Assembly (NCBI RefSeq): GCF_000025885.1
Contig: NC_014011.1
Coordinates: 62,001-126,000 of the forward strand
Direction of reading: 5' to 3'
From: Aminobacterium colombiense DSM 12261
Lineage (GTDB): Bacteria > Synergistota > Synergistia > Synergistales > Aminobacteriaceae
Length of the DNA stretch: 64,000 bases
Each line of letters starts with the position of its first letter. The first letter of the stretch is position 1. Both the position numbers and the translations under genes were made by a program. The notes below the pieces were generated by a model that saw only the letters and a program-made list of their open reading frames with translations, did no database searches and was not told the DNA's origin. This document shows positions 19,482 to 29,893 of this stretch, in pieces.

Positions 19482-19510
19482 TATAAGGGCTCCGCAGTCA
19501 TTTCGGTAGG

Positions 19511-19539
19511 TTGACAGATAGAAAAATCCACAATATAAT
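19511..19539 (+). promoter_or_regulatory. Consensus sigma-70 promoter of the BCAA-leader unit
   Basis: TTGACA and TATAAT are spaced by exactly 17 bases, the ideal housekeeping promoter. Transcription would start near 19546, about 38 bases ahead of the leader peptide. Confidence 0.85.
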
Positions 19540-19583
19540 GTGTTGAACTATTCAAATAATTCAGACGCAAAGGAGGGTTCCGA

Positions 19584-19682
19584 ATGAAGCTAATGAAGAA
19601 TCTCGCAGTTCAGTCTCTAGTAGCTCTACTTATAGTACTTATTATTAGCAGCGGATCCCCTCCTGGTGTGATTGGCATTTAA
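19584..19682 (+). CDS. Branched-chain amino-acid leader peptide
   Basis: A 32-codon frame behind AAAGGAGGG. Residues 12-21 read LVALLIVLII, ten residues of which nine are Leu, Ile or Val, with several CTA codons. This is the composition of IlvL-type leader peptides (Escherichia coli IlvL is also 32 residues with a V/I/L run). The last third of the frame overlaps one arm of a long RNA hairpin, and a terminator follows the stop, as expected for ribosome-mediated attenuation. What is unusual is that no ilv gene follows. Confidence 0.8.
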   Translation: MKLMKNLAVQSLVALLIVLIISSGSPPGVIGI

Positions 19683-19716
19683 TTGCCTCTACCCAGACAC
19701 CAGAGCCGGGATCCGC
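19651..19716 (+). promoter_or_regulatory. Antiterminator hairpin of the BCAA leader
   Basis: GCGGATCCC (19651-19659) is fully complementary to GGGATCCGC (19708-19716), and CTGGTGT (19663-19669) to ACACCAG (19697-19703). The outer pairing uses the 5' arm of the terminator, so the two structures are mutually exclusive. A ribosome reaching the leader stop at 19682 would mask the left arms and let the terminator form; stalling in the Leu/Val/Ile run would leave them free. Confidence 0.75.
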
Positions 19717-19741
19717 TTTAAGCGGTTTCCGGCTTTTTTTT
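19704..19741 (+). terminator. Attenuator terminator of the BCAA leader
   Basis: GCCGG...CCGC, a five-base loop, then GCGG...CCGGC followed by eight T. It competes with the antiterminator described at 19651-19716. Confidence 0.82.
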
Positions 19742-19802
19742 ATGGGTAAGGCAATTAACACAGAGAACGAGGTTCAATGAGAATGGGAAGGGAGAGGCTA
19801 TC

Positions 19803-19943
19803 ATGGTCAAAATGGGGAAAAAGGGCAAGGTACAGAGTGAAAAGAAAGCGGTAGTCTATGAAGCTGTGGATTCTATAGAAATGTTCAACTTGGAGGGGCT
19901 TCTCGAAGTTCGATGGAGAGGTCCTTTCGAAGGATACCGTTAG
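19803..19943 (+). CDS. 46-residue basic small protein under BCAA attenuation
   Basis: ATG behind GGGAGAGG opens a 46-codon frame. The first 15 residues are strongly basic (KMGKKGKVQSEKK) and the rest is mixed acidic/hydrophobic, ending in RWRGPFEGYR. No membrane helix or signal. It is the only frame between the attenuator at 19741 and the terminator at 19986, so it appears to be the gene that the BCAA leader controls. I do not recognise it; it could be a small regulator, a remnant of a lost operon, or an incidental frame in a regulatory RNA. Confidence 0.5.
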   Translation: MVKMGKKGKVQSEKKAVVYEAVDSIEMFNLEGLLEVRWRGPFEGYR

Positions 19944-19985
19944 AAAGTGCGAATATTATCATGAGCCCCTTGATACCGCAAGGAA

Positions 19986-20011
19986 GCCCTTCTCAACGAA
20001 GGGCTCTTTTT
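19986..20011 (+). terminator. Rho-independent terminator closing the BCAA-leader unit
   Basis: AGCCCTT and AAGGGCT flank a loop of eight bases and precede CTTTTTAT. It isolates the leader unit from the flavoprotein gene downstream. Confidence 0.75.
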
Positions 20012-20111
20012 ATGGTATCATCCAAGAGTCACCTTCAGACTATTCTTTATACATTTCCCATGGGCCCATCACTTTAAAGAAAATTCTTAACAGAGAAGGG
20101 GAGAAATAACG

Positions 20112-21494
20112 GTGAAATACGACGTTATTATTGTGGGATCAGGTCCAGCCGGAGTCTTTGCGGCCATGGAGCTGGTGAAAAGTGACAAAAAAGTACTGAT
20201 CTTAGATAAGGGAAAACTTATAAAAGAAAGAAAATGCCCTATTCTTGAAGGACTTTCCCCTGTATGCGTCAACTGCAATTCATGTAATATCGTTTCTGGT
20301 TGGGGAGGTGCAGGCACAGCTTCAGATGGAAAACTCACCCTGACAACAGGATTTGGCGGAAACCTCGAAGAATGCATAGGGGAAGATGCTCTAGAAAACA
20401 TGATCCGCTATGTAGACGATACTTTTGTAAGCTTCGGCGCTGATAAAAAGTATTACGAGCCAACGGGAGAAATTGTGAAAGATACCATCCAAAAGGCAGC
20501 AAGCCGAGGAATAAAAATTATCCCGGCCAGAATTCGCCATATTGGCACCGATGCGTCCCGTATGGTTCTCAATAACATGTATGAAGAACTGAAAGAGAAA
20601 TGCGACATTCTTATGAACACAGAAGTGAAGGAAGTTGTTGTCCATAGCGGAGTTGTCGAAGGAGTAGTCTTAAAAGATGGCCAGGAAATAAACTCTGAGT
20701 ACGTTATTTTAGCTCCAGGCCGAGAAGGAAGCTCGTGGCTCGAAGGAATTGTGAACAAATATAATTTGCCAATTGCCTCCATGCCTGTAGATATTGGGGT
20801 GCGAGTAGAGGTTTCGGATAGTATTTGCCAGGATCTTACAAAGCATTTCTACGAAGTGAAATGTCTATACAACACCCCTACCTTTGACGACAGATGCCGC
20901 ACTTTCTGTATGAACCCTTCGGGGTTTGTAGTACACGAGTATAACAAGGCCCATGATCTGGTCACGGTGAATGGGCACAGCCTAAAGAATGTAAAATCTA
21001 AAAACACGAATTTTGCCATTCTCGTGACAAAAAACTTCACCCAGCCTTTCAACGACCCCATAGGATATGCTACTCATATAGCTAAACTTGCGAACATGCT
21101 GGCTGGCGGCGGTATTTTACTGCAGCGTCTTGGTGATTTGCGGGATGGTCGCCGTTCCACAGAGGCCAGAATAACGAGGGGAATGGTTAAACCCACAGCC
21201 CAGGCCCAGCCAGGCGACCTGAGCCTTGTTTTACCTCACCGTTTTTTAATTGACGTGGTTGAATTTATAGAAGCCCTTAATATCATTATGCCGGGCATCA
21301 ATATGAACGATACTCTCCTATACGGAGTGGAGATCAAGCTGTATTCCTTACGGCTTGAATTAAAAGAAACCCTTGAAACACCTGCCATCCGAAATCTTTA
21401 TATGGCCGGAGACGGCGCAGGGGTAAGCCGTGGGATAATACAGGCGGCTTCTAGTGGTGTCGTAGCCGCCCGCTCAATTCTTTATCAAGGATAG
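20112..21494 (+). CDS. FAD-dependent dehydrogenase of the COG2509 family
   Basis: A 460-residue flavoprotein. The N-terminal FAD-binding motif is GSGPAGVFAA (residues 9-18) with the acidic end of beta-2 in LILDKGK; a CPILEGLSPVCVNCNSCNIVSGWGGAG block with several cysteines follows, and the C-terminal FAD segment is NLYMAGDGAGVSRGIIQAA. COG2509 members are widespread in anaerobes and lack an assigned substrate. GTG start behind GAAGGGGAG. No operon partner is evident: it follows a terminator and meets a converging nitroreductase gene. Confidence 0.85.
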   Translation: MKYDVIIVGSGPAGVFAAMELVKSDKKVLILDKGKLIKERKCPILEGLSPVCVNCNSCNIVSGWGGAGTASDGKLTLTTGFGGNLEECIGEDALENMIRYVDDTFVSFGADKKYYEPTGEIVKDTIQKAASRGIKIIPARIRHIGTDASRMVLNNMYEELKEKCDILMNTEVKEVVVHSGVVEGVVLKDGQEINSEYVILAPGREGSSWLEGIVNKYNLPIASMPVDIGVRVEVSDSICQDLTKHFYEVKCLYNTPTFDDRCRTFCMNPSGFVVHEYNKAHDLVTVNGHSLKNVKSKNTNFAILVTKNFTQPFNDPIGYATHIAKLANMLAGGGILLQRLGDLRDGRRSTEARITRGMVKPTAQAQPGDLSLVLPHRFLIDVVEFIEALNIIMPGINMNDTLLYGVEIKLYSLRLELKETLETPAIRNLYMAGDGAGVSRGIIQAASSGVVAARSILYQG

Positions 21495-29737: not shown

Positions 29738-29776
29738 AAAAAAAGGCCGGGACCCCTTTAAAAGAGGTCCCGGCCT
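29738..29776 (-). terminator. Attenuator terminator of the leu operon
   Basis: Read leftward, GGCCGGGACCTCTTTT and AAAGGGGTCCCGGCC form a long GC-rich stem followed by seven T, 18 bases after the leader stop and 50 bases before leuA. Confidence 0.9.
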
Positions 29777-29794
29777 GAGTATGCCAGAATGCAG

Positions 29795-29893
29795 CTATAA
29801 GGCTGCCGGCGTTCCAGGCAGGAACCAGCAACCGAGGAGGAGGGACAGAGAGGAAACAGCATGCATATTTTTATTCTCATAACGTTCTTTCAT
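29795..29893 (-). CDS. leuL: Leucine operon leader peptide
   Basis: A 32-codon frame behind GAGGAGGG. Leucine occupies residues 16, 18, 19 and 20 (SSLSLLL), using CTG and CTC codons, then 25 and 32. The frame is followed by a hairpin/terminator and leuA, the standard layout of leucine attenuation. GTTCC/GGAAC inside the frame could form a pause hairpin, and GCCTG in the frame can pair with CAGGC of the terminator arm as antiterminator. Confidence 0.82.
   Translation of the reverse strand: MKERYENKNMHAVSSLSLLLGCWFLPGTPAAL

Follow-up and report, generated by a model that had tools for sequence, protein, structure and literature searches.

A branched-chain amino acid-type leader attenuator that repeatedly precedes a conserved small-protein gene in Synergistota

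A compact forward-strand transcription unit lies at positions 19511–20011 of the window (the whole 64,000-nucleotide stretch of Aminobacterium colombiense DNA that was analysed), in a genome of a single contig of 1,980,592 bp. Every part that a preliminary description had claimed for it was found: a promoter, a leader peptide with the run LVALLIVLII, an antiterminator of 9 and 7 bp opposed to a terminator, a 46-codon open reading frame (ORF) and a closing terminator. The sigma-70 promoter TTGACA-17-TATAAT (19511–19539) matches the consensus at 12/12 positions; promoters at all 30 attenuator loci compared score 10–12 of 12, with a 17 nt spacer in nearly all. Transcription is presumed to start at an AT-rich box, ACTATTCAAATAATT (19547–19561), whose counterpart in many relatives is AATATTCAGA, placed 7 nt past the −10 element at many of the compared loci. 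At two loci described below (L023 and L026), AATATTCAGA agrees with the Firmicutes CodY box at up to 13 of 15 positions. A recurring CodY-box-like half site in the promoter was considered and set aside, since its agreement with the Firmicutes box is incomplete and is evidence of nothing.

The leader ORF of 32 codons (MKLMKNLAVQSLVALLIVLIISSGSPPGVIGI, 19584–19682) has its own Shine–Dalgarno sequence, AAGGAGGG (19570–19577), shortly 5′ of the ATG, and includes ten consecutive codons, LVALLIVLII, at 19617–19646, a run of codons for branched-chain amino acids (BCAAs); its position and composition are kept in relatives. The 5′ antiterminator arms that follow (19651–19669) are perfect complements of 3′ arms at 19697–19716: 19651–19659 (GCGGATCCC) pairs with 19708–19716 (GGGATCCGC) over 9 bp, and 19663–19669 (CTGGTGT) with 19697–19703 (ACACCAG) over 7 bp. 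The 3′ arms overlap the 5′ strand of the attenuator terminator at 19704–19741 (AGCCGGGATCCGC/GCGGTTTCCGGCT followed by T8, U8 in the RNA; stem 19704–19716/19722–19734), so that the two structures, sharing a strand, are mutually exclusive. Changes on both sides of terminator pairs are seen in the attenuator alignment. Folding is more stable than in any of 200 shuffled sequences, with z = −4.06 for 19640–19745 and z = −4.24 for the whole leader. No Rfam model (4227 searched over the whole window) reached its gathering score, and a search of 19500–20110 at E up to 5 gave weak chance matches only, nothing credible.

We built a covariance model, R1, from 28 attenuators; it scores the window attenuator (19626–19741) at 108.3 bits, this sequence being itself in the training set, and finds matches in 122 of 188 Synergistota genomes and 54 of 63 genera. 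Across 29 loci, antiterminator duplexes formed by each locus's own partners average −32.8 kcal/mol, compared with −25.7 for swapped partners and −20.4 for shuffled arms (permutation p = 2e-4, an optimistic value because the compared sequences are related). The preliminary description had raised the question of whether the leader elsewhere precedes ilv genes. It does: an R1 attenuator stands before ilvN-ilvC in three genomes read directly (G028, G035 and G037) and in many others by position, and one of the same kind stands before an NSS-type transporter in G002 and in A. colombiense itself. The locus thus has a leader ORF with its own Shine–Dalgarno sequence and a cluster of regulating codons, an exclusive terminator/antiterminator pair just behind that cluster, and homologous elements before same-pathway genes in relatives (ilvN-ilvC and likely BCAA transporters). 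By its sequence, its anatomy as a ribosome-mediated transcription attenuator of the ilv/leu type is well supported.

Such switches are not confined to this unit. In the window itself, a second attenuator (29738–29854, minus strand; 50 bits with R1), whose leader MKERYENKNMHAVSSLSLLLGCWFLPGTPAAL has Leu and Ser codons, stands before genes resembling leuA and leuC/leuD/leuB (29688 down to 25217). A leucine-type operon is thus present in a genome where neither ilvB nor ilvC was found. Elsewhere in the same genome (L121, L123, L124, L125, L126 and L127, outside the window, with gene names taken from reading the sequences rather than from profile searches), attenuator matches have leaders rich in particular amino acids, with genes behind them that seem to fit: a Met leader (MMMCM) before a metN-like ABC transporter, a Thr leader (TTTTT) before a homoserine-dehydrogenase-like gene, a Phe/Tyr leader before a phenylacetate-CoA-ligase-like gene, a Phe/Tyr/Trp leader before a YkvI-like permease, and BCAA leaders before an LctP-like permease and the NSS transporter. 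In G031, with names again read from sequence, one BCAA-type leader stands before a TRAP transporter, near which lies an agmatinase-like gene (L023, attenuator G031:C2:16106-16224, minus strand), and another before a YkvI-like permease accompanied by a class-III aminotransferase-like gene (L025, attenuator G031:C3:222304-222417, minus strand). Two tandem matches in that genome (G031:C8:513398-513516 and 513638-513751) lie upstream of ilvC (514212) and are possibly a double switch. Leader attenuation may be a general means of amino-acid control in Synergistota.

What the window switch controls is a single small gene. Behind the terminator, a Shine–Dalgarno sequence (GGGAGAGG, 19790–19797), with similar sequences before the family members examined, introduces a 46-aa protein (MVKMGKKGKVQSEKKAVVYEAVDSIEMFNLEGLLEVRWRGPFEGYR, 19803–19943) that ends in the motif RWRGPFEGYR (19911–19940). 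The preliminary description called this ORF basic; the 46 codons stand, and the adjective fits poorly, the net charge counted from the sequence being about +2 and the family overall near neutral in K+R versus D+E. A closing intrinsic terminator follows at about 19985–20011 (hairpin 19985–20005, an 8-bp stem with a loop of 5, then a T-run). Most relatives also have a hairpin 3′ of the small ORF, many of them without a clear T-run, and these hairpins have no evident common sequence. Beyond the closing terminator the next gene encodes a flavoprotein (20112–21494), so that, as was first described, no ilv gene follows.

The small protein belongs to a family. A profile, A4, finds it in 31 of the 188 Synergistota genomes, spread over 14 genera and 5 families, with membership cut at E ≤ 2.5e-7 and the remaining matches of a different order; the weak match in G028, the next genome below the cut, was opened and is a chance match. 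At the DNA level the unit was found at 75% identity in Aminobacterium sp. G001, the nearest relative with the unit (genome 2,427,830 bp), and at 71% in G031, with the small ORF kept in both, while another genome of the genus, G002, has BCAA-type attenuators and no detectable family member. The family C-terminus reads [WFY]RGPFEG-x-R-stop, in one or two copies; R-G-P-F-E-G-x-R is invariant in all 26 aligned members, and many members have a second, internal copy, for example ...SWRGPFEGFSA...EMRWRGPFEGLR. In G040 (L026 2879-3187, minus strand) a single attenuator is followed by two small-protein ORFs in tandem, which differ at their N-termini and share the end RGPFEGYR. The pattern [WF]RGPFEGY, which covers GY-type members only and not variants with other ends, gave 17 stretches over 84,980 bacterial and archaeal genomes, and the 7 that were confirmed are all from Synergistota. 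Plasmids (searched with tblastn) and viral contigs held no relative of the small protein, and we therefore see no sign of a mobile origin. Neither Pfam nor NCBIfam (searched with the window member and three diverse members) nor PHROGs (two members) gave a match above the curated cut-off. AlphaFold models are of low confidence (pLDDT 61 and pTM 0.16 for the window member with an alignment; pLDDT 56 for another member as a single sequence), so they give no structural hint of a partner; such an outcome is expected of a short and perhaps partly disordered protein.

Coupling of the family to the switch is strict. An R1 attenuator lies immediately upstream at every one of the 32 small-protein loci (31 genomes), and ten of these attenuators (in G004, G023, G035, G046, G048, G065, G118, G119, G121 and G183) lay outside the R1 training set. 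The frame is conserved as protein: dN/dS is 0.20 between the window member and that of G001 and 0.09–0.21 over the six computable pairs, and among 44 distinct instances of the motif Gly, Pro and Arg appear in most of their possible codons, with the residues themselves nearly constant. Protein-level purifying selection on the frame is thus well supported. The preliminary description had named as evidence against itself an unconserved frame behind a leader found only here; the product is instead conserved in 5 families of the phylum and the leader recurs elsewhere. The first alternative of that description, a BCAA-responsive small protein, is the reading that the comparisons support.

The other alternatives in that description fare worse. 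Read-through might yield a base-pairing RNA in which the ORF is incidental, and a short terminated transcript behind a regulated switch would suit this; what is conserved, however, is the amino acids and not the nucleotides, and codon-level conservation of the kind that these dN/dS values describe disfavours a regulatory RNA as the main product. We consider this very unlikely and largely excluded. The locus might also be an orphan, an attenuator left behind when its ilv/leu operon was lost or displaced, with a fortuitous 46-codon frame after it, a history that would agree with the apparent absence of ilvB and ilvC from the genome and with the homology of the leader to ilvN-ilvC leaders. Yet purifying selection acts on the frame, the same invariant C-terminus is found in all 5 families, and the unit also occurs in genomes that keep ilvC, some of them with a separate attenuator before ilvN-ilvC. 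Since leader, attenuator and small protein recur together in these 5 families and in unrelated neighbourhoods, the unit appears to be neither orphan nor relic, and we give the relic explanation hardly any probability; it too is largely excluded.

The neighbourhoods bear on two further explanations. The unit usually stands alone and in varying surroundings. The pantothenate/TRAP block beside the window unit, to which the preliminary description drew attention, is indeed shared with Aminobacterium sp. G001, the only relative to have it, and is absent from the other families examined. Most members examined in family f1 have no evident same-strand gene directly downstream, and several stand opposite iscU/nifS-like genes; f10 members are followed within about 200 nt by an ORF of about 440–470 aa on the same strand; in f8 genomes a hydratase-like ORF follows closely, together with leuC/leuD-like genes. 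We found no conserved neighbour and no exclusively co-occurring gene of the small-protein family, and across the 188 genomes the presence of ilvC does not track it, the unit being present in genomes with and without ilvC. CodY-like proteins occur in 166/188 genomes compared with 31/188 for the small protein; at that frequency their co-occurrence is uninformative and does not explain the family distribution.

These surroundings weigh on the idea that the small ORF is a second leader, whose peptide would act in cis or arrest the ribosome and so regulate, by way of the closing hairpin, a gene downstream. Its conserved residues lie at the very C-terminus, adjoining the stop codon, and their RGP may resemble the arrest motifs RAGP/RAPP known from SecM and ApdA/ApdP; closely following ORFs exist in f10 and in the f8 genomes. 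Against this, the downstream genes vary by family and are not evident on the same strand for most f1 members examined, the first of two motif copies is internal in many members, and the closing hairpins lack an evident common sequence. No conserved regulated gene directly downstream, as an arrest or cis-regulatory peptide calls for, was found among the loci, and we judge a second leader largely excluded and an arrest peptide unlikely. The same surroundings bear on whether the product could be a precursor from which a signalling peptide, modified or secreted (a RiPP or pheromone), is made, with the RGPFEG segment as its core. A variable N-terminus, a constant and repeated C-terminal segment, the tandem copies in G040 and the small, soluble nature of the product would all be in keeping with a precursor. 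However, within about 1.5 kb of the loci examined, where flanking ORFs were not family-scanned, we saw no common neighbour that might encode a modification enzyme, and no hydrophobic signal-like segment is apparent. A constant core with variable leaders is the opposite of the usual RiPP pattern. A precursor peptide is an improbable reading.

A different kind of evidence comes from amino-acid composition. Leu+Ile+Val account for 9.0% of all residues in 30 pooled members (11% outside the motif), compared with 24.8% in 53 long neighbouring ORFs of the same loci, a coarse control that includes no other short proteins; all 30 members fall below the background mean, and Ile stands at 1.2% in the family versus 6.9% in the neighbours. 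This is not plain hydrophilicity, because equally polar 56-aa stretches of the neighbours hold 18% Leu+Ile+Val and because the family is richer in Phe+Trp+Tyr+Met (18.7% versus 8.9%). The window member is the least depleted at 22% and its sister in G001 has 20%; both are near background, so that BCAA sparing is unsupported for Aminobacterium. For the other lineages, a low-LIV protein would profit if it is switched on when charged Leu, Ile and Val tRNAs are scarce.

The locus is probably a gene standing by itself, under BCAA attenuation, that encodes a small regulatory protein; this product would most likely act in trans through docking of its motif. The reach of a stalled ribosome is textbook logic in ilv/leu attenuation, and on that logic we infer a BCAA-responsive switch. 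With Leu-, Val- and Ile-tRNAs charged, translation would run to the leader stop codon (19680) and the ribosome would cover the 5′ antiterminator arms, in particular the second (19663–19669), and most of the leader end; 19704–19716 would then pair with 19722–19734, the terminator (19704–19741) would form and transcription would end. When these tRNAs are uncharged, the ribosome would stall within codons 12–19 (19617–19640) and leave the arms at 19651–19669 free to take 19697–19716 from the terminator, and RNA polymerase would continue into the 46-codon gene. Through its WRGPFEG-x-R motif, of which each molecule has one copy or two, the product would dock onto a conserved partner inside the cell. 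As a best guess, it would hold back the consumption of BCAAs, adjust their uptake or act on a starvation regulator, and so perhaps spare BCAAs. A more specific version is possible and offered tentatively: a Synergistota BCAA-starvation effector, LIV-poor in most lineages and so makeable in starvation, whose single or double WRGPFEG-x-R tail reprogrammes some conserved target, for instance a BCAA-catabolic enzyme, a transporter or the CodY-like regulator. The CodY-like regulator described in this phylum (PMC9318921) would be one candidate target among several.

Physiology is consistent with such a signal. A. colombiense requires yeast extract, and for the oxidation of Val, Ile and Leu it depends on a syntrophic partner that consumes hydrogen (PMC3035294). 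With ilvB and ilvC not found in its genome, it is an amino-acid fermenter that consumes BCAAs and is apparently unable to make them, and a signal of BCAA starvation that lowers consumption or increases uptake would be of use to it. The small protein is not a substitute for BCAA biosynthesis, since ilvC-bearing genomes carry the gene too. No genetic system had been established in Synergistota as of 2022 (PMC9318921).

Leader attenuators have a textbook role before biosynthetic or transport operons; here the switch repeatedly controls little or nothing beyond a tiny protein. The composition hints, for most lineages, at adaptation to synthesis under the inducing starvation, a testable clue to function, and the invariant tail is a handle for finding the partner. 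We found no paper with an RGPFEG-type motif in such a context and no account of such leaders in Synergistota in the literature, supplements excepted. As far as searched, novelty lies in the small-protein family, in how strictly it is coupled to the switch and in its Leu/Ile/Val depletion; the switch is of a known kind.

The logic is like that of SgrT/SgrS of Escherichia coli, where a small protein is induced by metabolic stress: in both, a stress-specific switch would lead to a small effector protein. There the switch is a transcription factor and here a leader attenuator, and we know of no sequence relation between SgrT and the Synergistota small protein. As in the proteobacterial ilvBN, ilvGMEDA and leuABCD leaders and in Corynebacterium ilvBNC (PMC10272879, PMC11857589), clustered Leu/Val/Ile codons precede an exclusive antiterminator and U-tailed terminator. 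Relatives of the present element also precede ilvN-ilvC, but in the window the controlled gene stands alone and encodes a small protein whose family is undescribed. The CodY-like regulon of Synergistetes, with predicted targets that include ilvA, ilvN, ilvB, ilvC, ilvD and leuC, is a proposed BCAA-linked control in the same phylum; attenuation is not mentioned in the text of that paper, and the regulator is far commoner than the small protein (PMC9318921). With peTrpL of Sinorhizobium (PMC7298713), the likeness is a short attenuator-linked peptide acting in trans, as proposed here. There the leader peptide itself acts, whereas here the candidate actor is a separate ORF past the terminator.
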